This document shows positions 4,743-42,332 of a stretch of 64,000 bases of DNA, piece by piece (position 1 is the first letter of the stretch; each line of letters opens with the position of its first letter). Under the pieces are notes generated by a model. It saw nothing but the letters and a program-made list of their open reading frames with translations, was not told the DNA's origin and searched no databases. The translations under genes were made by a program, and so were the position numbers. Origin of the DNA: Humisphaera borealis. GTDB taxonomy: Bacteria; Planctomycetota; Phycisphaerae; Tepidisphaerales; Tepidisphaeraceae. Where the stretch lies: contig NZ_CP063458.1 of the NCBI RefSeq assembly GCF_015169395.1, positions 3,224,001-3,288,000 of the forward strand, written 5' to 3'.

Positions 4743-5780
4743 GTGCAGACGATCAACCGTACCGATCAGGAGCGGGTGTTGCTCGCGAGACTAGCCGCCG
4801 CTGCGGGCCGTGCGATCACTATGGCCAGCCTTGCGCCGGTCAAGCCGACGAAGGCATTCCAGTCAGCTAAGCTCGGGGATCGGTCTGCCGTTATCGCCCT
4901 ATTGGATGACTTGGTCGGTCGAAGGCTGGTGTCCGAGGAGAAGACCGGTCGCACCGCCAAGTATGGGATTACAGATGCCGGGTCATCATACCTGAGCTCG
5001 CTTCCCGTTCCAGCCGAGACAACAGCGAGGCGTGCGGGCCGGAGGTCAAAGTCTGACTCGGCACCCATCATCGAGAATCCGAACCTCGTTCCGTTTCAAC
5101 GTGCGTTCCTGCTATTGCAGTTGCTGTCTGCCCCCGATCGAACGTTGACCGAAGGTCAGGCCAACAAGCTGCCGCTGGTGGCAAAAGAAGACCTGGAGTT
5201 GACCGGTCCGCTGGCGAGCCAACTCCGGCGGAAACTCACAGCGCATGGCTATCTGCAGGAACGCAAAGAAGGACGCAGTCTGTTCGTCACGATCACCGAA
5301 CGGGGGCTTGCATACCTCGCCACGCTCGAGCATCACCCGGCTGGGAAGTTCACCATGACCGGGGAGGCTTTGAACTCTCTGCTCGCGGCAAGAGGCAAAC
5401 GGCCCGCAGAACAGCAAGGCGACACTTCCGGCGACGATCGGCATGCGCGCCGCGATGGCGGCTCGGGTGTGCCATCGAACCTGGGGGCGGCCGCATTCGA
5501 AGTCTTCCGCGAATTGGCCCGCGAGCGATTCAGCCGTGACGGGATGGTACCCATCTTTGAGGTGCGGCGGGAGATGGCCGGCAGGTATGGGCCGGCCGCC
5601 GCCCGCCACGACACGCTGGACGGGCCGCTGCTGGAGCTGTGGAGAAACGGCAAGATCCGCCTGGTGTCCATCAGTGACACGCGAGGCGCGTCCGCGTCAG
5701 AGTTGGAAGAGTCGATCACAGACGCCTACGAAACCTTGTTCTACATGGAGGACGCCGATGGCCACTCCGGCACTCGCTGA
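4743..5780 (+). CDS. Triple winged-helix protein, first gene of FtsK module
   Basis: A 345-residue soluble protein starting at GTG 4743, supported by GGGAGG 8 nt upstream. I read three winged-helix-like units. Unit 1 is residues about 4-66 (QERVLLARLAAAAGRAIT, then a wing ending KTGRTAKYGITDAG). Unit 2 is about 100-195 (FQRAFLLLQLLSAPDRTLTE, then RSLFVTITERGLAYL). Unit 3 is about 250-325 (AFEVFRELARERFSRDGMV, then LLELWRNGKIRLVSISD). A charged, probably disordered linker (RGKRPAEQQGDTSGDDRHAR) separates units 2 and 3. Its 3' end overlaps the ATPase gene by 23 bp, so the two are translated as one unit. Such proteins usually bind DNA as regulators or as loading subunits for a partner ATPase. 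Here it could position the FtsK-like motor on DNA. I know no named family with this exact triple layout. Confidence 0.75.
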   Translation: MQTINRTDQERVLLARLAAAAGRAITMASLAPVKPTKAFQSAKLGDRSAVIALLDDLVGRRLVSEEKTGRTAKYGITDAGSSYLSSLPVPAETTARRAGRRSKSDSAPIIENPNLVPFQRAFLLLQLLSAPDRTLTEGQANKLPLVAKEDLELTGPLASQLRRKLTAHGYLQERKEGRSLFVTITERGLAYLATLEHHPAGKFTMTGEALNSLLAARGKRPAEQQGDTSGDDRHARRDGGSGVPSNLGAAAFEVFRELARERFSRDGMVPIFEVRREMAGRYGPAAARHDTLDGPLLELWRNGKIRLVSISDTRGASASELEESITDAYETLFYMEDADGHSGTR

Positions 5781-8700
5781 TTCATCATCATCCCCCGGTG
5801 TGTCCACAGCCTTCGCCGTCCGGTCGGAAGTTGCTTCCAAGGCGTCAAGAACCAGCAATCCGTTTGGAGAGGACCGGCTCAACGAGTCAGGCGATTTCCG
5901 GCCTGAGTGGGACGTGCCCTCGCTAAATGCGTCCGCCTCGGACTGGCTGCTGGAGCGCGTACGCGAGGTGCAGGCGTCGCCGGACGTGACTGCGGCCCGT
6001 AAGATCGCGGTGTTGCTGGCGGCAGCCGGTTACGGCAAAACACACCTGTTCGGACGCGTTGCCGACGCCCTCGGCGGCGACGTGCTCTTTGCGTTCGTCG
6101 GACCGATCTTTGAAGCGCAACTCGCTCGGCCGCTCCAGCACATCGTCTGGAACGTGGTCGAGGCTTTGTTCGACGCCCCGGCTGGCGGCGGCCCTCCCTG
6201 GATTGAGCAATTGCTGGCCCGGTTGTGTCGACCGTCGTTCGAGGCCTACTTCAAGCAGCTTCCAGACCTGCTGCGCACGAGGCATCAAACCTTGTGGCAG
6301 CGGCTGCAGACCGATCACCTGGCCGCGCTGGAGATCATCCGTTCCGTGGCCGAACCTTCGGCGTATCGACGGCTGGCCGAATCGATCGCCAGGGCGTTTC
6401 CCGGGCTGCGAAACGAGATTGTCCGCGCGCTGGCATTGGCCTGGTCGCCCGACGGAGCGGACGTTCGGCGCTGGCTCCGCGGCGACGACCTGCCGGAGCA
6501 GGAGTGCGCCCGCCTCGGGCTGTCGCAGACGCCGCCGGAACCCGAACGCGTGATCGAAGCAATCGCCACGATGTTGCAACGCATCGGCGTGCCACTCGTG
6601 ATCTGCTGCGACCAGTTGGAAGCGGTGCTTAAGGATCCCGAAGTCGGACCGATCAACCTGTCGAATGGCCTGGTCGCGCTGCTGCATTCCGTGCCCAACA
6701 CACTCATCGTGCTCGGATGCCTGGAAGACGCCTGGTCTGTTGTGATCGCGAACAAGGTACACGAGAGCTTCTTCGATCGCGTTCACAAGCCACAGAAGTT
6801 GGCAACGCTGTCGGCCGGCCATGCAGTCGATCTCGTGCGGCGTCGTGTCATGGCGTGGGACGGAAATCTGGCCAAGGGTGGTACCTGGCCGATCGCGGTG
6901 GAGTCGATTCAGGCATACGCCAACGCGCGGCCCCGCGCGCCCAGGGCGCTGCTGCAGGAATGTCGCAATGCGATCGACGAATGGCTGTCGACCGGCAAAG
7001 AGCCGGTCACCCTGGGTAACACGCCTCCGCCTCCCTTTCCTGAAGTGTTCATCCAGCACTGGAATACGGAACTGGCTGCCATGCAGAAGAAGGCGAAAAG
7101 CCCTGTCGACATTCAGGAAGCGCAGCTCTTTCAGAGCGTGAAGTACGCGATCGAAATCGCTCGCGTTGCAAATCACCTTCCGCCCGGAATGAGGGTCATC
7201 GACGCGATTGACGGTGCCATCAAACCCAGCGGCAACGACCCCCGTCCCAGTGTCGGCGTTCGCCTGGAAGCCGGCGGCAAGACGTTCAAAGTGATAGTCG
7301 CGGTGACCAAGCGCGACGCCGGTACGGCGTTCGGGTCGTACATGACCGCATTGACGGACGCCATAAAGCCCAAGGCCGTTGTCGGCGCGGTTGTCGTGCG
7401 GCCATACGCCGAGCTGAATGTCGGTCCGCACACCGCGGCCCGCAAGACCTACGACAAGGCGATCGCCGACGGCAAGCTGCGGCCTTTTGCGCTCGGGTCC
7501 GAGCGGTTCACTTTCGACCAGCTCGAGTGCCTATTCAGCATCCTGACCGACGCTGACGACGGGCTTCCGCTGGGCGGTCGGAATCTCAACCGCGATGACT
7601 GCGTGAAGTTGATCGCGGAGAATGGGCTCATCAAGGGGCTCAAGCTGCTCGACCACATTTTCGCGAACTGGGTGGAACTGAGTGCAGTGCAGCCGTCATC
7701 CGATACGCCCGCGATTGCGGTTGCAGTTCCTGCCGCGCCGGCAGTCGCGGGTACGCCACCAGCCGCAACGCCGCCCCCGCTGCCGGTCGCGGCCGGCCCG
7801 GCTCGTTCAGTAGCGACGGTGTCCGGCCCCCCCGCCGCCGCGGCAGCCGAACTCAAGCCGGCGGATATCAAGCCGGTCGATATCGCCAGCCTGGTCGACC
7901 AGCCGCAGGCCTGGGCCAATCGGATGCTTGCCGATATCACGGCCAAGCTTCTTCTGTACAAGCTTCCCGTCGAGCCGATCCGCGCGCAGGTCGGTCCGAC
8001 GTTCGCCAGGCTTATGGTTCGCCCCGCCGACACCACCGACATCAACAAGGTTCGTAACAAGGCGACCCAACTGCGGGTATCGCTCGGTCTGGCGGCTGCG
8101 CCACTGATCGACTTTCAGCCCGGGTTTATCAGCATCGACATCCAGCTTCCCAGGCGGCAGATCGTCGCGCTGGCACCTTTGCTTGGCACTCGCCCGGCAA
8201 ACCTCGTCGGCCAGACGGCATTCCCGGCGGGGCAGGATGTCGCCGGCCAGACCCACTGGCTGAACCTGGCCGACCCGTCGAGCTGCCACTTGCTGATCGC
8301 CGGCACCACCGGCAGCGGCAAGAGTGAGTTCCTCAAAGTGATGCTGGGCGCGATGGCGCACGGCATGACGCCGGAGCAGTTGCAGTTCATTCTGGTCGAC
8401 CCCAAGCGAGTGACTTTCAACCTCACCGGGCTCAGTCCGTACCTGCTCAAACCGATCGCGTATGACGACGAGGCGGTCATTCCACTGCTCACGGAATGCG
8501 CCGACGAGATGGAACGGCGTTACGAAAAGCTGGCATCAATGCATAAGTCACACGTCAGCGAGCTGACCGGGGCCGATTCGGTTCCGCGCATCGTCCTGAT
8601 GTTTGATGAGTTCGCCGACCTGATGCACGACCCGATCGCCAAGGCCGAGATGGAGCCGTTGCTGAAGCGACTTGGGGCCAAGGCGCGGGCGAGCGGTATC

Positions 8701-8949
8701 CACCTGGTGCTCGGCACTCAGCGGACGGAGGCCAGCGTGGTGACGCCATTGCTGCGGAGCAACCTGCCCGGCCGCGTGAGCCTTCGAGTCGCGAGCGAGA
8801 AGGACTCGATGTTGATCCTCGATGCCCCGGGCGCCGCAGAGTTGCTCGGCAAGGGAGACCTCCTCTGGAAACAAGGCGGAGACTTGCTGCGGCTGCAGTC
8901 GCCGTTCGTATCGAATGTGGAATTGGAAGAGCTATTGCGCGTGAGATAG
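5758..8949 (+). CDS. Soluble two-motor ATPase: N-terminal STAND/KAP-like P-loop plus C-terminal FtsK/SpoIIIE motor
   Basis: A 1063-residue protein. The ATG at 5758 has GGAGG 6 nt upstream and lies inside the preceding gene. Residues about 70-430 are a P-loop NTPase with Walker A AAAGYGKTHLF (about 89-98), Walker B VPLVICCDQLEAVL (about 278-291) and a helical tail with PRAPRALLQEC. Residues about 454-600 form an unassigned alpha/beta domain. A Pro/Ala-rich linker covers about 648-698. Residues about 730-815 match the FtsK alpha domain (VGPTFARLMVRPADTTDINK). The FtsK motor follows, with Walker A IAGTTGSGKSEF (about 847-858), VDPKRVTF, Walker B RIVLMFDEFADLM (about 944-956) and the typical GAAELLGKGDLLW end. 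There are no membrane helices and no gamma domain, so this is not the cell-division FtsK. It probably moves or clamps double-stranded DNA under control of the N-terminal NTPase. The winged-helix gene upstream is co-translated and a kinase gene converges 36 bp downstream. Confidence 0.85.
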   Translation: MATPALADSSSSPGVSTAFAVRSEVASKASRTSNPFGEDRLNESGDFRPEWDVPSLNASASDWLLERVREVQASPDVTAARKIAVLLAAAGYGKTHLFGRVADALGGDVLFAFVGPIFEAQLARPLQHIVWNVVEALFDAPAGGGPPWIEQLLARLCRPSFEAYFKQLPDLLRTRHQTLWQRLQTDHLAALEIIRSVAEPSAYRRLAESIARAFPGLRNEIVRALALAWSPDGADVRRWLRGDDLPEQECARLGLSQTPPEPERVIEAIATMLQRIGVPLVICCDQLEAVLKDPEVGPINLSNGLVALLHSVPNTLIVLGCLEDAWSVVIANKVHESFFDRVHKPQKLATLSAGHAVDLVRRRVMAWDGNLAKGGTWPIAVESIQAYANARPRAPRALLQECRNAIDEWLSTGKEPVTLGNTPPPPFPEVFIQHWNTELAAMQKKAKSPVDIQEAQLFQSVKYAIEIARVANHLPPGMRVIDAIDGAIKPSGNDPRPSVGVRLEAGGKTFKVIVAVTKRDAGTAFGSYMTALTDAIKPKAVVGAVVVRPYAELNVGPHTAARKTYDKAIADGKLRPFALGSERFTFDQLECLFSILTDADDGLPLGGRNLNRDDCVKLIAENGLIKGLKLLDHIFANWVELSAVQPSSDTPAIAVAVPAAPAVAGTPPAATPPPLPVAAGPARSVATVSGPPAAAAAELKPADIKPVDIASLVDQPQAWANRMLADITAKLLLYKLPVEPIRAQVGPTFARLMVRPADTTDINKVRNKATQLRVSLGLAAAPLIDFQPGFISIDIQLPRRQIVALAPLLGTRPANLVGQTAFPAGQDVAGQTHWLNLADPSSCHLLIAGTTGSGKSEFLKVMLGAMAHGMTPEQLQFILVDPKRVTFNLTGLSPYLLKPIAYDDEAVIPLLTECADEMERRYEKLASMHKSHVSELTGADSVPRIVLMFDEFADLMHDPIAKAEMEPLLKRLGAKARASGIHLVLGTQRTEASVVTPLLRSNLPGRVSLRVASEKDSMLILDAPGAAELLGKGDLLWKQGGDLLRLQSPFVSNVELEELLRVR

Positions 8950-8985
8950 GTCTGCTTCAGCCGATCCTTCGTGCCCGAGGGCTGC

Positions 8986-10314
8986 TCACCGCGCCTGCGC
9001 TGCAAGATACTCTCTCGCCAGCAGCCCGACATCGAAGCAACCCTCCGGCAGCGGCGGATCGCCGGACGGCAGGTATTCGATCGCCTGAAGCAACTCGCGG
9101 GCATCCTTGAAACGTCGTCCCGGGCCGGCCAGGCACTGCGACAGGATGCGGACCGTGTGGCTGTCGAGACCCTGGCCTTCGTCGCGCAGCCGTTCGGCAA
9201 AATCGTACGGCGGCCGCTCCAGCCGCTCGACCAGCAACTGATACCAGACCACGCCGATTGCGAATACGTCGTATTGCCCGAGGTTCGGTTCGGCGAACGG
9301 ACGCGACGCCTCCGGCGGACGATACATTGACGTGCCCGCCTGCCCCAAGTCCGGCCGGCTGGACGAGCCCGATCCTGACGCCTTCCCCGGTGCCGCCGCC
9401 GGCTCGGCAATTTCGCCAAGGCCGAAGTCGGTTACCTTCGCCTGCGCGTCAGGTGGTGGGGTTAAGAGAATGTTGCCCGGCTTCAAATCGCGGTGGTAGA
9501 TGCCCGCGCCGTGGGCGACGGCCATCGCGCGCACGATGTCGTAAATGACGTCGAACTTGTTTAGCGGCGAACGCTTCGTCTTGTCGTCGATAATCCAGTC
9601 TTCCAGCGACCGTCCAGCGACATACTCGAGTGTCATGAACGGATACTTCTGACCCGAAACAGTCACGTCGATCAATTCAACGATTCGCGGATCCTTACCC
9701 AGCGCCTCCTGGATACGGATAAGAGATTGGAACTCTCGCTTGATCCACTCTTGTGCGTCGGGCTGCGTAAAGAACTTGAATGCACGACGCATCCGCGTTT
9801 GACGATTCTGCCCGAGCCACACTTCGCCAAAGGTGCCCATGCCCAGAAACCGCACAAGCGTCCAATCCGGCTGCCCGTCGATCCTCTCGAATGGTCGCCG
9901 CTTCGTACCGAGCATGCGGGCGATTTGATCAAGGACGTCCTTTTGCCGAAGCACGTAGCTGTTGGCCGTCTCCTGGCTTGAGACGGTCCCGGACGCCCTG
10001 GTGAGGTTCAACAGCACTGACGCCAGCTCTTCCCGCTTGCGCGCGTCGTCTGGCGTCCTTCCAGGAACGGCTTGGCTGACGATGGACCAAACTTGGCGAT
10101 TGGAGAGTCGGCCCCACTCCTCAAGAACCATTCTCGCCTGCGGGGGCGGGAGCTCGCCCCGTAAGCCGGGCACCTTCAGAGCCTCCGGATCGGGCGTTCC
10201 GCCGCCCTTCCCGAAAGTACCGACCAGATAACGAAGCACCTTCGTGGCCACCACGCCACCGGCAGCACTTGCAGCGCCCATCGCGATCTGTAGCAGGATG
10301 GCATACGGGTTCAT
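8986..10314 (-). CDS. Membrane-anchored Hanks-type Ser/Thr protein kinase
   Basis: A 442-residue protein, ATG at 10314 with GGAG 6 nt upstream. One hydrophobic segment (residues about 5-33, AILLQIAMGAASAAGGVVAT) probably anchors or associates it with the membrane. Residues about 55-125 are a helical region (QARMVLEEWGRLSNRQVW) that I cannot assign. The kinase domain runs from about 148 to 420: glycine loop FLGMGTFGEVWLG, catalytic lysine in RAFKFF, catalytic loop HRDLKPGNILL near 267, DFG near 294, and an activation segment with a Gly/Ser-rich insert ending GTSMYRPPE. All catalytic residues are present, so it should be active. It has no C-terminal PASTA or beta-propeller sensor. Its stop lies 36 bp from the stop of the FtsK-like gene, convergently, which suggests but does not prove that it regulates that module. 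Confidence 0.92.
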   Translation of the reverse strand: MNPYAILLQIAMGAASAAGGVVATKVLRYLVGTFGKGGGTPDPEALKVPGLRGELPPPQARMVLEEWGRLSNRQVWSIVSQAVPGRTPDDARKREELASVLLNLTRASGTVSSQETANSYVLRQKDVLDQIARMLGTKRRPFERIDGQPDWTLVRFLGMGTFGEVWLGQNRQTRMRRAFKFFTQPDAQEWIKREFQSLIRIQEALGKDPRIVELIDVTVSGQKYPFMTLEYVAGRSLEDWIIDDKTKRSPLNKFDVIYDIVRAMAVAHGAGIYHRDLKPGNILLTPPPDAQAKVTDFGLGEIAEPAAAPGKASGSGSSSRPDLGQAGTSMYRPPEASRPFAEPNLGQYDVFAIGVVWYQLLVERLERPPYDFAERLRDEGQGLDSHTVRILSQCLAGPGRRFKDARELLQAIEYLPSGDPPLPEGCFDVGLLAREYLAAQAR

Positions 10315-10770
10315 GTGATGCTCCCCGATTTAGCAATGACGGTACCGCACTCTGAGTCACACCACCCCGGTTTGACATCGGTGCGCACCAGCGATTCACC
10401 GGGCATATCGTACAGAACAATCGCGATGACCGGTAATCCACGAAAACCCATTGGCGTTCGGCGATCAGAAGCTTCCCCCGCGCACTGCGCAAGTAGGAGC
10501 ATTGTTCCTTAACTGAGTCACCCGTGCTCGAATCAGATCGAGGGTGAAATCAGAGCGGGGCAGGGCGGACTCCTTTCTTCACACCATCAGAGGGTTCGTG
10601 CCTTAGCGGTACGACGATGACAATGGGCAAACCGTTTCCGGACGACGACTGTTCATCCCGACCTCACCTATCGAACGATGAAGCTCAACGCTCGTGCGTT
10701 TGAGTTGTCTACTCTTGCAGGCGCATCACCGTTTCCAGGAAACGAGCAACCGGCTTCAGGAAGTTTGGAC
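10315..10770 (+). other. Divergent intergenic region, kinase and XylR-like regulator
   Basis: 456 bp between two divergent start codons. I see no credible gene in it: reading frames here are short and lack a ribosome site. It should hold the promoters of both flanking genes. No clear -10/-35 pair, operator palindrome or terminator stands out. Confidence 0.5.
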
Positions 10771-11958
10771 ATGACACGAAAACCGCGTCGCGTCGCGCTG
10801 ATGCTCGACTTGCAGTGGCCTTACAAGCGGCACTCGCAGGTGTTCGCTGGCATCCAGCGGTACGCTGAGGCGCAGGGTTGGATCTCTGTCATCGACGAGT
10901 TCGTGCACAACACGCTTCCGGGTCGCTCCGGCCGTGCGGTGCCTTACGACGGCATTGTGGCGCGGGGGAATCATCGGCTTGCCACCCGCGCGGCACGGCT
11001 GGGCGTACCGGTGGTGAACGTCTGGTCGAGTTCGCCGGCGCGGCACCTGATACCGGGAGTCTTCCCGGATTCGACTGCGACCGGCCGTCTGATCGCCGAG
11101 CACCTGCTGTCGCGCGGGTTTCGAGCGTTCGCCACCCTGACGTCGCCCCAGAACGTTGTCCATGACCTTGAAGTGAAAGAGTTCGACCGGCTGGTCCGCG
11201 AGGCGGGGTTCAGTTGCGACAAGTCCTTCGTTCCGCAGGACCCGTATAAGGATATCGCCAGCTGGCGGAAGACCGAGCGGCTGCTTCAGCAGGCGGCAAA
11301 GCGATGGAAACCGCCGGTCGCGGTATACGTCGGCGAGGAGTTCTGCGCTCGGATGCTCATTGAAGAGGCGCATCGGCTCGGGTGGCGCATTCCGCAGGAC
11401 CTGGCGATCATCGCCGGCAAGAACGAAGAGACGCTTTGCGAGCAGCCGCGGCCATCGCTGACGAGCGTTGAGATCGGCTACGACCGGATTGGATTCGCGG
11501 CCGCCGAGCTATTGGACCGGTTGATGGACGGGGAACGGCCGCCGACCACGCCAATCCGAGTCCCGCCGCACGGACTGGTGGTTCGGGAGTCGACGGACTT
11601 CTACGCGGTCGACGACGGCGTTGTCGCATCGGCACTGGAGTACATTTCCGCGAATAGTCACCGGCCGATCGGCATTGCCGATGTCGCCCGGGCGGTGGGC
11701 GTCGAACGGCGGACGCTGCAGAACTACTTTCGCAAGTCGATCGACCGCCCGATCGCGACGGAGATCCGCCGGGTCCGGATCGAGCGCGCCAAGCGGGAGC
11801 TGGCGCAGGGGGATCGCCCGCTGTCCGAGATCGCCCGCGATGCCGGCTTCGGGACGATGCAGCGGCTGTACGAGGTCTTTCGACGCGAACTGGGCATGAG
11901 CCCGAGCGACTACCGCAAGCAGCGAACCCTCGATCCGGCCGCCGGGCGGAAACCGTAG
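10771..11958 (+). CDS. XylR-type regulator: periplasmic-binding-like domain plus AraC helix-turn-helix
   Basis: A 395-residue cytoplasmic transcription factor. ATG 10771 is chosen because AGGAAG lies 8 nt upstream and the protein then opens MTRKPRRVALMLDLQWPYKR, the usual start of this family; 31 extra in-frame codons upstream look non-coding. Residues about 8-275 are a LacI/periplasmic-binding-like sugar-sensing domain (YKRHSQVFAGIQRYAEAQGW). Residues about 285-385 are the AraC DNA-binding domain with its two helix-turn-helix motifs (IADVARAVGVERRTLQNYF and LSEIARDAGFGTMQRLYEVF, MSPSDYRK). The length matches E. coli XylR. Planctomycetes carry many paralogues that control sugar or polysaccharide genes, so xylose is not assured as ligand. 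The secreted PHP-domain gene lies downstream, after a 652-bp gap with an AT-rich palindrome that could be a target. Confidence 0.9.
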   Translation: MTRKPRRVALMLDLQWPYKRHSQVFAGIQRYAEAQGWISVIDEFVHNTLPGRSGRAVPYDGIVARGNHRLATRAARLGVPVVNVWSSSPARHLIPGVFPDSTATGRLIAEHLLSRGFRAFATLTSPQNVVHDLEVKEFDRLVREAGFSCDKSFVPQDPYKDIASWRKTERLLQQAAKRWKPPVAVYVGEEFCARMLIEEAHRLGWRIPQDLAIIAGKNEETLCEQPRPSLTSVEIGYDRIGFAAAELLDRLMDGERPPTTPIRVPPHGLVVRESTDFYAVDDGVVASALEYISANSHRPIGIADVARAVGVERRTLQNYFRKSIDRPIATEIRRVRIERAKRELAQGDRPLSEIARDAGFGTMQRLYEVFRRELGMSPSDYRKQRTLDPAAGRKP

Positions 11959-29563: not shown

Positions 29564-29682
29564 ATTGAGCCGAGCCGAACCTCGACGTTTGCGGGGGCGT
29601 TCGGCGCGTAACAGCTACGAGCCCTCGCGGTATCATCCTTGAAGTCATTTTGTGCCTTTCACGTCATCGTCCCGGAGGCCCC

Positions 29683-31149
29683 ATGCTGCGATCGCTGCCG
29701 ACGCTGTGCGCGTTGATGCTCGTGATGACTCCCACCGTTCGCGCCGCCGACGCCCCGCTGCAAGACCAGGCCGCCGCCGCGATGGAGAAAGCCGTCAAGT
29801 TCTTCCACGGTTCGGTCTCGAGCCATGGCGGGTATCTCTACAAGTACAGTGCGGACCTGGCGAAGCGCGAAGGGGAAGGCGTCGCCGACATCGACACGGT
29901 CTGGGTGCAGCCGCCCGGCACGCCTGCCGTCGGGATGGCTTATCTCGACGCGTGGGAGCGGACCAAGGCCCCCTACTTGCTCGCCGCGGCCAAAGACGCC
30001 GGCATGTGCCTGGTCAACGGGCAGCTTCGTTCCGGCGGATGGACCGGCTGGATCCACTTCGGCGACGCCGACCGCAAGAAGTTCGCCTACCGCGTTGACC
30101 CTGCCCCCAAGGCCGGCGGGAAGAAGGCGTTCAATGTTTCGACGTTTGACGACGATAAAACGCAGTCCGGCGTCCGCTTTCTCGCCCGGCTCGACAAGGC
30201 ACTCGACTTCAAGGACCCGAAGATCCACGAATGCGTCACGACAGCGCTCGATGCGATTCTGAAGGCACAGTTCCCCAACGGGGCCTGGGCACAGGGGTGG
30301 GAAGCCTTCCCCGATGCCGCCGACCATCCCGTCAAACCGGCCGCCTATCCCGCCGACTGGCCGCGGAAGTATCCCGGCGGTTCGTATTGGTGGTGGTACA
30401 CCTTTAACGACAACACGGTCCACGACACGATCAACACGCTGCTACTGGCGACTGAAATCTACGGCGATACGAAGTACCGTGAATCGGCGATTCGTGCCGG
30501 AAAGTTCATGGTCCTGGCTCAGCTCCCCGACCCGCAACCGGCCTGGGCACAGCAGTACAACTTCAACATGGAACCCGCCTGGGCCAGAAAGTTCGAGCCG
30601 GCGGCGATTACGGGCGGCGAATCACAAGGGGTCATCGAATCACTGATGAAGCTTTACGTCGAGACCGGCGACCGGGCCTTTCTCGCACCGATTCCCAAGG
30701 CACTGGAGTATCTCAAGAAGTCCCGCCTGCCCGACGGCCAACTCGCACGGTTCTATGAACTTAAGACAAACAAGCCGCTCTATTTCACGAAGACATACGA
30801 GCTGACCTACGACGACGGCGACCTGCCGACGCACTATGGTTTCAAAGTGTCGAGCAAGCTGGAATCGCTGCAGAAGAGGTTCGACGAGGTGTCGAAGTTG
30901 TCGCCTGAAAAGCTCGCCGCAAAACGGACAAAGAAGCGCGATTCGGCGACCCCGCCTCTGGCTTTGGAGAAGGCTGTAAAGGAGGTTATTGCCGGCCAGG
31001 ACGACCGCGGCGCGTGGGTCACTGACGGGTCGCTGAAGTATCACAAGAACGACGGCACCCGCCGGGTCATAGAAAGTGAGACGTTTATCAAGAATCTTGC
31101 AACATTGAGCCTTTATCTCGACCAACGGGCTCATCAGAAAGCGGAATAG
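29683..31149 (+). CDS. Secreted pectate lyase, PL10-type
   Basis: A 488-residue exported enzyme, ATG 29683 with GGAGG 4 nt upstream and a signal peptide (MLRSLPTLCALMLVMTPTVRAAD). PL10 lyases cleave polygalacturonate by beta-elimination, with an alpha-helical barrel fold. Matching segments are STFDDDKTQSGVRFLARL, LKAQFPNGAWAQGWEAFPD, WWWYTFNDNTVHDTINTLLL and the helical-repeat end. A GGESQGVIESLMKLYVETGD segment is also typical. Product oligogalacturonides would feed hexuronate catabolism, to which the tagaturonate epimerase at 51.9 kb belongs. A small hairpin follows the stop. Confidence 0.8.
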   Translation: MLRSLPTLCALMLVMTPTVRAADAPLQDQAAAAMEKAVKFFHGSVSSHGGYLYKYSADLAKREGEGVADIDTVWVQPPGTPAVGMAYLDAWERTKAPYLLAAAKDAGMCLVNGQLRSGGWTGWIHFGDADRKKFAYRVDPAPKAGGKKAFNVSTFDDDKTQSGVRFLARLDKALDFKDPKIHECVTTALDAILKAQFPNGAWAQGWEAFPDAADHPVKPAAYPADWPRKYPGGSYWWWYTFNDNTVHDTINTLLLATEIYGDTKYRESAIRAGKFMVLAQLPDPQPAWAQQYNFNMEPAWARKFEPAAITGGESQGVIESLMKLYVETGDRAFLAPIPKALEYLKKSRLPDGQLARFYELKTNKPLYFTKTYELTYDDGDLPTHYGFKVSSKLESLQKRFDEVSKLSPEKLAAKRTKKRDSATPPLALEKAVKEVIAGQDDRGAWVTDGSLKYHKNDGTRRVIESETFIKNLATLSLYLDQRAHQKAE

Positions 31150-37015: not shown

Positions 37016-38256
37016 CAGTGGCCTCCCTGTGCGGCGCTGGTGAGGTCGAACAGAGGCAGGAACATGCTGATCGCGATGAAGCCGACAAGGATGCCCAGGC
37101 CGATCAGGATGACCGGCTCGAGAATGCTCGTGAGCGACTTGACGACCACCTCATTCTCCTCGTCAAGGAAGTCGGAGATGTTGAGCATCAAGGTCGCGAC
37201 CTGTCCGCTGGCCTCGCCGCTGCGCATGGATTCGACAATCGACGGCGTGACCAGGTCGCTCTCGGCGAAGGCACTGCTCATCGGCGACCCGCGCGTGACC
37301 GCCTCTTCGGCTCTGGCCACCAGATCGGCGAAGTGAACGTTCGAACAGCTCTGGCGGGCCAAGGCCAGCGCTTCGAGCATCGGAACGCGGCCGTTGAGCA
37401 GTGTTCCGAGCACCCGGGTGATGCGTGCGATCGCGAAAGACCGGGTGACATTGTTGATCATCGGCGCCCGCACCAGTGCGCCATGGAAGATGCGCTTGCC
37501 GGAAGGCGTTCGAATCCAGTAACGGGCGCTGAAGAACGCGCCGACCACTACGAGAATCAGCACCCACCAGTAGTTCCGCAGCGCCTCGCTGATGTGCATG
37601 AGCATCTTCGTCGTCGACGGAAGCGGCGCGTCGAGCGACTCGAACAGCCCGGTGAATCGGGGCAGCACGAACAGCAGCATGAGGCACAGGACGTTGATCG
37701 AGATGAAGATCAGGAGCGTAGGGTAGATGAGCGCGCCGACAACTGCCTGTCGGACGTGCAGGGACTTCTTGCTCAGCACCGCCAGCCGATCGAGCATGAC
37801 ATCGAAGATTCCACCGGCCTCGCCAGCGGCGATCAGGCTGCGTGCGACGGCGTCAAAAATGTGGGGATAGGCAGCCATTGCCTCCGAGAGCGGCGTACCC
37901 TCTTCCACCTTGGCCCGCAGCGACGACACGACGCTCCGCCAGGCGGCGTCCTTGCTCTGACGTTCCAATGCGCCCAGCGCATCGACCAGCGCGGTGCCCG
38001 AAGCAACCAGCACCGCCAGCTGCCGCGTGAACATCGCCAGGTTCTTGAGCTTCCGCCCCGTGCCCATGCGGATCCTGCCGCTGGCCGGCGCGGAACTCGT
38101 CATCGGACCCGCACTGCCGGACGAGGCCGGTGCGATCGTCGCGACGAACAGTCCCTGCCGGCGAAGGCTTTCCGTCGCGTCCAGGATTGACGCGGCCTCG
38201 ACGGTGCCGCTGAGCTTCTTGCCGCCGTTATCGAAGGCTTCGTAAGCGAGCTTCAT
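37015..38256 (-). CDS. pilC: PilC/GspF-type inner-membrane protein
   Basis: A 413-residue polytopic membrane protein with two GspF domains and three or four hydrophobic segments. The first domain has FTRQLAVLVASGTALVDAL and the second RVLGTLLNGRVPMLEALALA. The conserved segment EAGGIFDVMLDRLAVL lies between, and the ending EPVILIGLGILVGFIAISMF is the last membrane helix. It forms the rotating platform for the PilB motor. AGGAGG lies 4 nt before the ATG, which overlaps the pilB stop by 4 bp. Confidence 0.94.
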   Translation of the reverse strand: MKLAYEAFDNGGKKLSGTVEAASILDATESLRRQGLFVATIAPASSGSAGPMTSSAPASGRIRMGTGRKLKNLAMFTRQLAVLVASGTALVDALGALERQSKDAAWRSVVSSLRAKVEEGTPLSEAMAAYPHIFDAVARSLIAAGEAGGIFDVMLDRLAVLSKKSLHVRQAVVGALIYPTLLIFISINVLCLMLLFVLPRFTGLFESLDAPLPSTTKMLMHISEALRNYWWVLILVVVGAFFSARYWIRTPSGKRIFHGALVRAPMINNVTRSFAIARITRVLGTLLNGRVPMLEALALARQSCSNVHFADLVARAEEAVTRGSPMSSAFAESDLVTPSIVESMRSGEASGQVATLMLNISDFLDEENEVVVKSLTSILEPVILIGLGILVGFIAISMFLPLFDLTSAAQGGH

Positions 38257-40121
38257 GCGGCCTCCTTGAGAACAGCGGCGGCGGCAGTCGCGGCGTCTTT
38301 GGCGATCTTGTCCTTGGCCGCGCCCTCTTCGTGGGCATCGGCGTCTTCGTTGGTTGTCACGCGGAGGACTTCCTCAAGGCTGCTTTGCCCGTCGAGCGCC
38401 GCGGCGACGCCTTCCTCTCGCAGTGTCCTTCCGCCCCACTTGCGGAACTCGGCCCGAAGCTCGTGCGACGGGCAGGCCTTGTGCACCATCCGGCGAAGTT
38501 CCGGGGTGACTTCCATCACCTCGTACACGCCAAACCGGCTCTGGAACCCACTGTCATGGCACGACTGACAACCGCCACCTTTACGGAACGCGCGGCCGAC
38601 CTTGTCGGCCAGTCCTGCGTCTGCGAGTTCCTTCTCGCTCGGGTAGTACTTGGTGGCGCAGGACGGACAGATGCTGCGGGCCAGTCGCTGCGCGACGACG
38701 CCGTTGAGCGCGCTGCTAAGCAGGTAGGGTTCAATGCCCATGTCGAGCAGTCGCGCCACGGCACCGACGGCATCGTTCGTGTGCAGCGTCGCGAGCACGA
38801 GGTGCCCGGTCAGCGCGGCCTGAACGGCCACATGCGCCGTCTCCTGATCGCGGATTTCGCCGACCATGATGACATCCGGGTCCTGCCGTAGAATGCTGCG
38901 CAGCGCCTTGGCGAACGACAAACCAATCTGGTCGTGGACGTGGGTCTGGTTGACAAGGTCGAGCTGGTATTCGACGGGGTCTTCGATCGTGACGATGTTG
39001 AGTTCCGGACTGCGGACAAGGTCGAGTGCGCTGTAGAGCGTCGTCGTCTTGCCGCTGCCGGTCGGGCCCGTCACCAGCACCAGGCCGTGCGGCTTTTCGA
39101 GCATTCGGCGGAATGACGCCAGCGCCTCGGGTCGGAAGCCCAGTTCATCCAGGCGTACCTTCAGGTTGGCCTTGTCGAGAATGCGCAGCACGAGCTTCTC
39201 GCCGAGCAGCGTGGGCATCGAACTGACGCGCAGGTCGATTTCCCGCCCCTCGGCGACGATGTGCACCCGGCCTTCCTGCGGCAGGCGCTTCTCGGCGACA
39301 TCCATCTTCCCGATGACCTTGATGCGCGACACGATCGCCGCGTGCATGCCGGCCGGCGGCTTCATGAGGTCGCGCAGAACGCCGTCGATCCGGTAGCGAA
39401 TCCGACTTCCCTTCTTGTCGGGCTCGATATGGATATCGCTCGCCTTGTCGCGAATCGCGGTCAGCAGCGCGACGTTCACCAGGTTGATGATCGGCGAGCC
39501 GGCGACCATCTTGTCGAGGTCTGTGGTCGGCCCTTCATCCACGCTCTCGCGGTCCACGACTTCGACGTCCTGCTCACTGAGGCTCGTCAGGAACGCGTCG
39601 ATGCTGGTTTCGCCGGCCGCGTACTTCTTGATGAACTCCTTGATGTTGGCTTCGATCGCCAGCACCGTTCGAACGCGGCAATTGGTGAGTTGCCGGATGC
39701 GGTCGATTTTCGGCAGATTCTGCGGATCTGTCATCGCGACGGTCAGGGTGCCGTGCACCTTGAACATCGGGATCGCCAGCAGTCGCTCGGCCTCTTCAGC
39801 GCCGAAGAGCTTGAACAACGTCGGGTCGATCAGCCCGTGGCGAAGCTGCACGCCTTTGACACCGAGCGTTCGGGCCAGAACCTGCACGAGGTGCGCGCCG
39901 CTGATGACGTTCTGCTCGACGAGCATTTCCCCGAGCAGGCGACCGCTGTTCTTCTGCTGGGCTAGAGCCCTGGCCAGCTGCTCCTGGGTCAGCACCCCTT
40001 CAAGTACGAGTGCTTCGCCGAGGCGCACACGGCGGCCGGGCGTTCCGGGACTTGGCGCGCCGCCGCCGGCCGCCGCCGAGGCGGGTGTGACAGGTGAAGA
40101 TTGGGGAGCCGATTGGGACAC
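38253..40121 (-). CDS. pilB: PilB/GspE-type assembly ATPase with MshEN domain
   Basis: A 622-residue cytoplasmic hexameric ATPase that drives pilin polymerisation or type II secretion. It starts at GTG 40121. After a Pro/Ala-rich leader, residues about 31-95 form an MshEN domain (RVRLGEALVLEGVLTQEQLA), a fold known to bind cyclic di-GMP in some PilB proteins. The motor domain has Walker A GPTGSGKTTT near 350, the Asp box (VTIEDPVEYQ), Walker B (IMVGEIRDQETA) and the His box (VLATLHTND). Two CxxC pairs (CPSCATKYY and CQSCHDSG) form the tetracysteine zinc site. A Lys/Ala-rich tail follows. It opens the pilBCMNO block, 20 bp after the STAS gene. Confidence 0.94.
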   Translation of the reverse strand: MSQSAPQSSPVTPASAAAGGGAPSPGTPGRRVRLGEALVLEGVLTQEQLARALAQQKNSGRLLGEMLVEQNVISGAHLVQVLARTLGVKGVQLRHGLIDPTLFKLFGAEEAERLLAIPMFKVHGTLTVAMTDPQNLPKIDRIRQLTNCRVRTVLAIEANIKEFIKKYAAGETSIDAFLTSLSEQDVEVVDRESVDEGPTTDLDKMVAGSPIINLVNVALLTAIRDKASDIHIEPDKKGSRIRYRIDGVLRDLMKPPAGMHAAIVSRIKVIGKMDVAEKRLPQEGRVHIVAEGREIDLRVSSMPTLLGEKLVLRILDKANLKVRLDELGFRPEALASFRRMLEKPHGLVLVTGPTGSGKTTTLYSALDLVRSPELNIVTIEDPVEYQLDLVNQTHVHDQIGLSFAKALRSILRQDPDVIMVGEIRDQETAHVAVQAALTGHLVLATLHTNDAVGAVARLLDMGIEPYLLSSALNGVVAQRLARSICPSCATKYYPSEKELADAGLADKVGRAFRKGGGCQSCHDSGFQSRFGVYEVMEVTPELRRMVHKACPSHELRAEFRKWGGRTLREEGVAAALDGQSSLEEVLRVTTNEDADAHEEGAAKDKIAKDAATAAAAVLKEAA

Positions 40122-40141
40122 AGTTGTTTTGTGACAAGGTG

Positions 40142-40477
40142 CTACAGGAAGCTTCGAACCGCCGTGTTGGCATCCTCAAAATGCTCGAACAGCGGCGTCA
40201 GTTCGGTCAGTTCGAGCACTTCGCGGATCGTCTTGTTGGCCGAGCAAAGTCGAAGAGCCTGGCCGGACTTGCCGAGCTCTTCCGTCAGTTCCACCAGCGT
40301 CTCCAGGCCCTTGCTGTCGACGAAAGGAACGGCCGACATGTCGACCACAAAGCGCCCGAGGCTGGTCGTCATCGCCTCGTTCATGCGGCCGCGAAACAGG
40401 GCGCAGTCCTGCTCCACCAAAGCCCCATCGGGCTTGAGGACAATGACGGCACCCTGGCGTTGTTCGGAGATCTTCAT
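40142..40477 (-). CDS. STAS-domain protein (anti-sigma factor antagonist-like)
   Basis: A 111-residue single STAS domain starting at ATG 40477 (MKISEQRQGAVIVLKPDGAL). The central strand-loop-helix FVVDMSAVPFVDSKGLETLV carries the Ser of the D-x-K/S-x-G-type phosphorylation site, as in SpoIIAA-like switch proteins. A short second helix LRLCSANKTIREVLELTEL follows. It sits between the histidine kinase and pilB, 20 bp from the latter, so it is likely a regulator of the pilus or of the kinase. No ribosome site precedes it: the upstream sequence is an inverted repeat. Confidence 0.88.
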   Translation of the reverse strand: MKISEQRQGAVIVLKPDGALVEQDCALFRGRMNEAMTTSLGRFVVDMSAVPFVDSKGLETLVELTEELGKSGQALRLCSANKTIREVLELTELTPLFEHFEDANTAVRSFL

Positions 40478-40481
40478 TTTT

Positions 40482-40548
40482 TGTAGGGGCACACGGCGTG
40501 TGCCTGTAACTGCGATCGCCGACGGGCACACGGCCGTGTGCCCCTACA
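40482..40548. repeat. Inverted repeat TGTAGGGGCACACGGC between kinase and STAS genes
   Basis: Perfect 16-bp arms at 40482-40497 and 40533-40548. Each arm also extends into its own palindrome: 40488-40504 (GGCACAC-GGC-GTGTGCC) and 40524-40543, a perfect 20-bp palindrome. It fills the gap between the kinase stop (40549) and the STAS start codon (40477), and would form alternative cruciform or hairpin structures in the operon mRNA. Confidence 0.9.
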
Positions 40549-42126
40549 TCACGCCGCCGTCTTCAGCGGCAGTGCCAGCGTGAACGTGCTGCCCTTGTTC
40601 AGTTGCGACTCGACGGTGATATCGCCCCCGTGCAGACGGGCGACTTCCCGGGCGATGGTCAGCCCCAGGCCGGTTCCGGTGATCTTGTCCACGCGATTGT
40701 CGTTCGCCCGGTAGAACCGCTCGAAGATCTTCTGGCAGTCTTCTTCCGAGATGCCAATCCCGGTGTCGGCGACCGCTACCGCCAACTGCTTGTCGTCTGC
40801 GTCGACACGCACCGTTACGCTTCCGCCGGCGGGCGTGTACTTCAGAGCATTGCCGACAAGGTTGTGCAGCGCGACGGCGACCTTCTCGCGATCTGCCTGC
40901 AGTACCGGAAGCTTCGGCGGAAGCACGAATACCAACGCGATCTTCTTTTCCATCGCCTGCTGCTGGTAATCCTGCTTCAGGCCATCGAACAACTGATCCA
41001 GCCGGACATCGTCGCTTTTGAGCTTGAACGCGCCGGCTTCGATCTCGGCGACTGAGAGCATTTCTCCGACGATTCGCTCGAGCCGGCGGGATTCGCTGTT
41101 GATGACGTTCAACGCCTGCACGCGGATGCTCGGATCGGCCTCCCCGTCCTCGATCGCCGTCTCGACATAGAGCCTGATGTTGGTCAGCGGCGTGCGGAGC
41201 TCGTGCGTCGCCTGGGCGACAAACGCGTGGCGGGCCTCTTCGGCGGCTTTTTGTTGGGTGATGTCCTCGATCACGATCATCGCCGAGGCCGCGTCTTCCC
41301 GGCGGACCGGCCGAACGCTGAACCGCAGCACGCCCGCCGTCGAGTCCGTCCCCTTTGACTCGGCCTTGCGGTCGACGTCGATCACGCTGCGGCGACGGCT
41401 CGTACCGGCGACCACCTGCCGGACGGCGGCGACGACCGAATCGACCTTGATCGCGACGCCGACGTCGGCGTTGACCATCTTCTCTCGATCGACCCGGAGG
41501 AACGTCGCGGCTGCGCCGTTGGCGTATTTGATCTGGCCCTGATCGTCGAACAGGATCAACCCCTGGCTCATCGCGTCGCACGCGGCGTCGAGATCACCCC
41601 GGGCCTGGCGGCGACGGCCGAGGGCTTCGCGGGCTTTCTCGGCCAGCGCTTCGCGACGGACCTGGTCGCGCTCGGCGACCAGCAGGTTCCACGCCTGGGC
41701 TTCGGGTCCGAGCGCAGGATTGACGGGCATCACGGCCCCCGGCGCGGCTGTGCCTCCCGATAGACTCGACGACAGCAAGGCGTCGCGAACGGCCATCAAC
41801 CCGCTCAAACGACGCCGCAGCGATCGGTAAAGGAAAAGCAGCGCGAGCATTGCCGTCGAGCCGATTCCGCCGACAGCGGCCATCAGGGTCAGGCCGTAGT
41901 TACTGGGGCTGACATGGTCGGCCGACCAGTAGGCCGCGCCGGCAACAATCACGAACAGGACGGCCGCAAGGGCCAGGCCGCCCGAGGCGACCAACGATTC
42001 CTGCCGCACGTAGCGACGGGTAGCGGTAGCACTGGCAGTGTCTGCCGTTGCAAGACCCCCAGCGGCAGCGCCGGCAGCACCGTTCATTGAATTGGCGGGA
42101 AGATTGGAACGCACGTCGACTTCCAT
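40549..42126 (-). CDS. Membrane histidine kinase with PAS domain
   Basis: A 525-residue sensor kinase. After a Ser/Ala-rich N-terminus there are two membrane helices (about 47-67, GLALAAVLFVIVAGAAYW, and 79-99), a coiled linker, a PAS domain (about 180-290, LDAACDAMSQGLILFDDQGQ), then a HisKA dimerisation box (VAQATHELRTPLTNIRLYVE, phospho-His near residue 308) and an HATPase domain with N box (ALHNLVGNALKYTPAGG), G1 (VADTGIGIS) and G2 (GTGLGLTIA). No receiver domain or response regulator is adjacent. It is the first gene of the leftward operon with STAS and pilBCMNO, so it may tune pilus assembly. ATG 42126 is chosen; the ribosome site is weak. Confidence 0.9.
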   Translation of the reverse strand: MEVDVRSNLPANSMNGAAGAAAGGLATADTASATATRRYVRQESLVASGGLALAAVLFVIVAGAAYWSADHVSPSNYGLTLMAAVGGIGSTAMLALLFLYRSLRRRLSGLMAVRDALLSSSLSGGTAAPGAVMPVNPALGPEAQAWNLLVAERDQVRREALAEKAREALGRRRQARGDLDAACDAMSQGLILFDDQGQIKYANGAAATFLRVDREKMVNADVGVAIKVDSVVAAVRQVVAGTSRRRSVIDVDRKAESKGTDSTAGVLRFSVRPVRREDAASAMIVIEDITQQKAAEEARHAFVAQATHELRTPLTNIRLYVETAIEDGEADPSIRVQALNVINSESRRLERIVGEMLSVAEIEAGAFKLKSDDVRLDQLFDGLKQDYQQQAMEKKIALVFVLPPKLPVLQADREKVAVALHNLVGNALKYTPAGGSVTVRVDADDKQLAVAVADTGIGISEEDCQKIFERFYRANDNRVDKITGTGLGLTIAREVARLHGGDITVESQLNKGSTFTLALPLKTAA

Positions 42127-42332
42127 ATCGCACCACAACAACCCGCAAGACCGTTTCGCCGCATTCCGGTTCAATCCGGCATCCTCTCTATCGGATGGGG
42201 ATGGAGGGACTTGACGGAAGAGGTGCCCGGGTGATGAGGTGGGCGCACTTTCGCGAGGGCAGTCGCCTGGGTGTCGCTCGTCCGGGAGACGACGGCCAGA
42301 CGTAGCGTGCATCTATCCACCCCGACACCTCC

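Follow-up and report, generated by a model that had tools for sequence, protein, structure and literature searches.

The window analysed here (64,000 nucleotides of Humisphaera borealis DNA) contains three adjacent genes, encoding a triple winged-helix protein, a two-motor ATPase and a Ser/Thr kinase, that form a real unit. On balance, we consider that this unit is probably a three-protein accessory DNA-capture module, namely a nuclease-less, ORC-FtsK-fused and kinase-bearing variant of the Orc/CDC6-HerA/FtsK capture systems. We observed the anatomy of the three proteins, their strict three-way association, the loss of the nuclease, kinship to the capture systems, and intact residues in the kinase and the motor. 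We propose more tentatively that a Ser/Thr kinase took the place of the nuclease in an Orc/CDC6-FtsK capture system, which would make the module a DNA-sensing kinase signalling device with phosphorylation as its output.

Organization of the locus

The genes, and the domains of the ATPase, are as follows (window positions).

4743-5780, + strand: triple winged-helix gene (P0002), 345 aa; predicted DNA-reading subunit
5758-8949, + strand: two-motor ATPase, 1063 aa; in order ORC/Cdc6 AAA+, inactive REase-like domain, linker, FtsK alpha, FtsK motor
5848-7032, + strand: ORC/Cdc6-type AAA+ domain, residues 31-425 (VIA-align, homologue alignment)
7036-7557, + strand: REase-like domain without catalytic acids, residues 427-600 (model topology, alignment)
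7684-7896, + strand: disordered Pro/Ala-rich linker, residues 643-713 (pLDDT below 50)
7903-8946, + strand: FtsK alpha and RecA-like motor, residues 716-1063 (Pfam, structure comparison)
8986-10314, - strand: Ser/Thr kinase, 442 aa; kinase domain at about residues 150-416 (Pfam Pkinase, 1.2e-29)

The winged-helix open reading frame starts with the GTG at 4743, with GGGAGGAAC upstream of the start, and stops at 5780. The ATG of the ATPase gene (5758), preceded by GGAGG, lies inside the winged-helix gene, giving an overlap of 23 nt, and the ATPase frame ends at 8949, where it converges with the kinase gene with 36 nt between the two stops. The preliminary description of this DNA had given the gene coordinates, the overlap and the convergent gap exactly.

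It was found that the AlphaFold2 model of P0002 (pLDDT 75) contains three helix-helix-helix-hairpin units, that is, three wHTH, in keeping with the earlier reading of a triple winged-helix protein. Units 1 and 2 resembled MarR/PadR-type winged helices in structure comparison (Z of about 10), and unit 3 is assigned as a winged helix from its secondary structure. P0002 is similar in layout to DndG/SspB, and AspA of the pNOB8 partition system (E 8e-4) is among the best matches of a winged-helix profile, all of which are weak.

The two-motor ATPase

Residues 31-425 of the ATPase matched ORC2, Cdc6 and ORC1 at Z values of 14 to 16.6 in VIA-align. A STAND/KAP-like P-loop had been proposed for this region; an N-terminal P-loop ATPase domain is indeed present, but it is of the ORC/Cdc6 type, and the KAP NTPase identity was rejected because there was no KAP match and the fold in structure comparison was that of ORC/Cdc6. 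The ORC/Cdc6 and STAND proteins are related clades. The Walker A (G91xGKTH) and Walker B (D285-Q286) motifs of this domain were invariant across 10 homologues, and the DQ form of Walker B was also present in the nuclease-type relatives that were aligned (see below). With DQ as its Walker B, the ORC domain may be incapable of ATP hydrolysis.

The REase-like domain sits between the AAA+ domain and a short C-terminal wHTH-like part (residues about 583-642), and some of the ORC structure matches to the ATPase jump from residue 425 to residues 601-625. Read within the ATPase model, the order of its elements, over residues about 454-578, appears to be alpha-beta-beta-beta-alpha-beta. Among 10 homologues, no acid was conserved at the (D/E)xK position before K518, whereas K518 itself was mostly kept. 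The suggestion that an effector might be a domain inside the ATPase is therefore not supported. Capture-type Orc/CDC6 proteins, in the consulted part of PMC10853773, always carry an inactive REase that separates the AAA+ core from the C-terminal wHTH, and the position and modelled topology of the domain described here appear to be the same.

The disordered linker, 38-76 aa long among the homologues, joins the ORC half to the motor half. The motor half matched Pfam FtsK_SpoIIIE at 5e-30, and model residues 712-1063 matched FtsK motors at Z 34-36 and the DndH C-domain at Z 18.6, as expected from the full FtsK alpha-motor described previously. The Walker A (GTTGSGKSE), the Walker B (DE) and the sensor Q988 of the motor were conserved in the homologues. 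A sequence search of solved structures with the ATPase returned FtsK-type matches only, and the sequence is consistent with a soluble protein, as had been stated.

The Ser/Thr kinase

Residues K180, E194, D276 and the DFG motif at 296-298 were invariant in an alignment across 11 homologues, and the module kinase is therefore predicted to be active. The N-terminal residues, about 130 in number, had no Pfam match, and a sequence search of solved structures returned generic kinases only. The module kinases form one clade, separate from the other kinases in these loci. The kinase had been described as membrane-anchored, a claim that did not survive comparison with its homologues: the best 19-residue hydropathy was 1.8 in the window kinase and ranged from 0.6 to 2.1 over 12 homologues, and the hydrophobic N terminus was absent from the called open reading frame in two of them. 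A membrane anchor was thus rejected as marginal here and not conserved.

Individual kinase genes showed other features. In L132 (G527 C9, 11724-14172), the module kinase gene has an IS630-like transposase pair within its 3' end, and this copy is interrupted. In L058 (G473 C29, 3476-4711), the homology of the kinase N terminus runs upstream through a TAA and the called reading frame is shortened; the TAA would reflect either a nonsense mutation or a fault in the assembly. Outside the module, the kinase most similar to the module kinase was a larger one with an open frame of 904 aa in L162 (G110 C155), the match being confined to the kinase domain (E 7.5e-53).

Association and distribution of the three genes

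The homologues came from 392 genomes of the phylum, a scan of GTDB contigs, and searches at order and phylum level. The N-terminal half of the ATPase was used as the query for the module; the FtsK alpha-motor alone matches cellular FtsK in nearly all genomes. Kinases were called module-type at E <= 1e-130. As a result, 12 loci with a fused ORC-FtsK ATPase were obtained (the window, L041, L042, L043, L055, L056, L057, L058, L059, L061, L132 and L133), among them those of the named strains Thalassoglobus neptunius KOR42 (L042) and Singulisphaera sp. GP187 (L057). The winged-helix gene was directly upstream of the ATPase gene, and a module-type kinase was adjacent, in 12 of 12. An ATPase gene lacking its winged-helix partner was never found among these loci, and the kinase is not a neighbour peculiar to this genome; the preliminary description had named either outcome as one that would count against the grouping. 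A 13th instance, L054, from the same genus as the window, is a 3-kb contig carrying the convergent end of the ATPase gene and the kinase.

The kinase gene was convergent in eight of the 12 fused loci, downstream and co-directional in three, and upstream in one. The flanks of these loci were unrelated, except for one neighbour common to the close relatives L041 and L042 and a common sulfatase-type family. The ATPase was present in 7 of 102 Gemmatales genomes and in 4 of the 392 genomes of the phylum sample, and the kinase used as a query recovered the same 7 and the same 4, plus the match in G110 to the kinase domain only. The co-occurrence of ATPase and kinase in Gemmatales gave a Fisher p of 5e-11, which is indicative because the genomes are not phylogenetically independent. 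The fused, kinase-bearing form has so far been found only in Planctomycetota. An accessory role is argued for by this patchy presence, and the locus is not a housekeeping one, the other outcome for which a check had been advised: besides its rarity in the phylum, the genome has a separate cellular FtsK.

A scan of 62 neighbour proteins with PADLOC and Pfam did not reveal the enrichment in defence genes that had been suggested as a test, and the neighbourhoods thus lend the defence role no support. Among the best 25 of 52 neighbour families, the PADLOC matches were to kinase-type models and, in two members, to the 'mad3' model, and the Pfam matches were to ordinary metabolic and transport families. 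Two scans of viral contigs found no relative of the module. In a plasmid collection there were matches to 834 records, but in no case did the match span more than 80% of the query; of three that were inspected, two were cellular-type FtsK loci and one was a nuclease-type capture locus (Pseudanabaena).

Elsewhere in the window, a type II/IV secretion ATPase gene (T2SSE + MshEN) stands beside a PAS histidine kinase gene at 38253-42312, an arrangement resembling a type IV pilus/T2SS-type locus. A pectic acid lyase family gene (29650-31149) and a gene for a regulator with a sugar-binding-type sensor and an AraC-type HTH (10678-11958) suggest that the organism may use plant polysaccharides.

Relationship to Orc/CDC6-HerA/FtsK capture systems

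Orc/CDC6-HerA/FtsK capture systems, according to the part of PMC10853773 consulted, comprise an ORC/CDC6 protein with an inactive REase insert, a HerA/FtsK motor (with FtsK alpha in one set), a nuclease and, in a subset, a further gene with two to four wHTH. The weaker homologues of the ATPase N-terminal half led to 11 loci in which an ORC protein is encoded beside a separate PD-(D/E)XK-FtsK/HerA protein (L045, L062, L063, L065 and L176-L181, plus L047 with a HerA-like motor), and these nuclease-type loci fit the systems as described there. The module kinase was near the motor in none of the 11, and a profile made from five nuclease-type loci gave no PD-(D/E)XK match across the 12 fused loci. 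The kinase was present in 12 of 12 fused loci versus 0 of 11 nuclease-type loci (p 7e-7).

The module shares with the capture systems the ORC/Cdc6 AAA+ domain, the multi-wHTH partner gene, an FtsK alpha-motor of the same FtsK clade and, in the relatives aligned, the DQ Walker B; its REase-like domain without catalytic acids may correspond to their inactive REase insert. It differs in that the motor is fused to the ORC protein, a Ser/Thr kinase is present and there is no PD-(D/E)XK nuclease. Because the module lacks the active nuclease of these systems, we call it a variant of the capture systems and not a member of them.

In an IQ-TREE analysis of the FtsK motor domain, the fused and nuclease-type motors formed one clade (98/88), separate from cellular FtsK (99/96). 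Within it, the fused motors were themselves a clade (100/98), with the nuclease-type L065 and L045 as nearest neighbours (98/89). Kinship of the fused form to the capture systems is thus well supported. Descent of the kinase form from the nuclease form is favoured but not proven, because a tree that joined all nuclease types into one group was not rejected (AU p 0.12).

The preliminary description knew of no named system with this set of genes. This holds for PADLOC, NCBIfam and the parts of the literature examined, but the class to which the module is related has been described, with a nuclease (PMC10853773, PMC12839542). In the consulted parts of these two papers, kinases appear in DndF or PglW contexts only, and we came across no account, in the literature covered, supplements aside, of a fused form that bears a kinase and lacks a nuclease. 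The Orc/CDC6 capture class is itself predicted from sequence, and we found no experimental test of it in the literature.

Other ORC-family genes were seen in planctomycetes. In L049 (G142 C217, 3971-12678), a winged-helix gene and an ORC-family gene share 4 nt, and next after them on the same strand come two large kinase genes, encoding proteins of 1024 and 879 aa with generic kinase scores; there is no FtsK at this locus, which is possibly another ORC-kinase pairing. Further ORC-family ATPases of 550-1300 aa (L044 in G115, 7160-10871; L050-L053; L134-L149) were mostly without nearby FtsK or PD-(D/E)XK matches.

Comparison with other known systems

The best PADLOC match to the ATPase was SspH (3e-60), which aligned residues 715-1060 with positions 1401-1762 of 1766 in SspH, that is, with the motor only. 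DndFGH/SspFGH resemble the module in having a triple-wHTH subunit (DndG) and a HerA/FtsK motor, and DndF is sometimes fused to S/T/Y kinase domains (PMC10853773, part consulted). The module lacks the DndH N-terminal domains, an active REase, a P-loop nucleotide kinase and a link to PT modification. Membership was rejected given the motor-only match and the occurrence of DndC in just one of the 12 carrier genomes, which is not this one. The BREX-related capture (BRC) system likewise combines a HerA/FtsK protein, an ORC/Cdc6 ATPase and a tripartite wHTH protein, but it has PglZ, DUF6079 and a STAND NTPase, and a kinase is absent from its seven components in the consulted part of PMC12839542.

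Like the module, MADS has a kinase (mad6) and an FtsK-like ATPase (mad8) in one system; membership was rejected because the kinase scored 102.8 bits against the MADS6 (MAD6) cut-off of 460, the mad8 match covered the motor alone, and there is no methyltransferase here. Type 2 BREX also includes a Ser/Thr kinase (PglW) alongside an AAA+ ATPase; the module kinase reached 68.4 bits against the PglW cut-off of 990, so membership was rejected and the parallel with BREX drawn in the preliminary description is weak. A housekeeping FtsK was likewise rejected, the module motor being outside the cellular clade.

Discussion

In the working that we propose, recognition of particular DNA, and loading on it, would fall to the triple winged-helix protein together with the ORC/Cdc6 AAA+ domain and its dead REase-like and winged-helix parts. 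The FtsK ring, the motor motifs of which are intact, would then translocate the captured DNA. DNA engagement would switch the kinase on, and phosphorylation of invader or host proteins would halt the infection or the cell. The defence role itself would follow from the patchy distribution and from the relationship to a class of predicted defence systems.

That the kinase is the effector is our best guess, and is favoured because it stands where the nuclease is missing. Close behind is the possibility that the module is a capture system in which the kinase is a regulator that phosphorylates the ATPase or the winged-helix protein, thereby holding the motor off or releasing it, while DNA pumping or stripping alone does the work. 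Such motors can be under phospho-control, as DndFGH and HerA systems lose their activity when phosphorylated by a phage kinase (PMC12345140), and there is no other effector in the module. Most often the kinase gene lies on the other strand, apparently as its own convergent transcription unit, which is consistent with regulation and counts against a typical operon-borne effector. However, the nuclease-type relatives do without such a kinase, and its presence exactly where the nuclease is absent fits effector replacement better than an added control.

The remaining explanations are weaker. A segregation or replication-control module of a chromosome, plasmid or mobile element, with an ORC-like loader, centromere-binding-like winged helices, an FtsK motor and a kinase for timing, would account for the ORC/Cdc6 and FtsK folds, the AspA match and the ordinary neighbourhoods; it is unlikely, since the module is rare and patchy in a phylum sample, the scans of viral contigs and plasmids revealed no carrier, a cellular FtsK is encoded elsewhere in the genome, and in the tree the FtsK domain falls with the nuclease-fused capture motors and not with cellular FtsK. 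A phosphorothioate-linked restriction module of the SspFGH/DndFGH type is very unlikely: SspH is the best PADLOC match, but no nuclease partner is present and 11 of the 12 carrier genomes have no DndC. Planctomycetes have many Ser/Thr kinases, so an unrelated kinase might have come to lie beside the ATPase pair by chance, but this is refuted by the counts, namely adjacency in 12 of 12 loci in three gene orders, a single kinase clade and exact co-occurrence in genomes.

If the kinase is indeed the effector of a DNA-capture module, a motor-based DNA-capture scaffold can swap its nuclease for a kinase, in the way that effectors are exchanged in CBASS or STAND systems, and DNA translocation in bacteria can be tied to kinase output. 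The module would be a compact three-gene system that can be tested, and its nuclease-type relatives would provide a natural comparison pair for the roles of the ORC and FtsK motors in capture systems.
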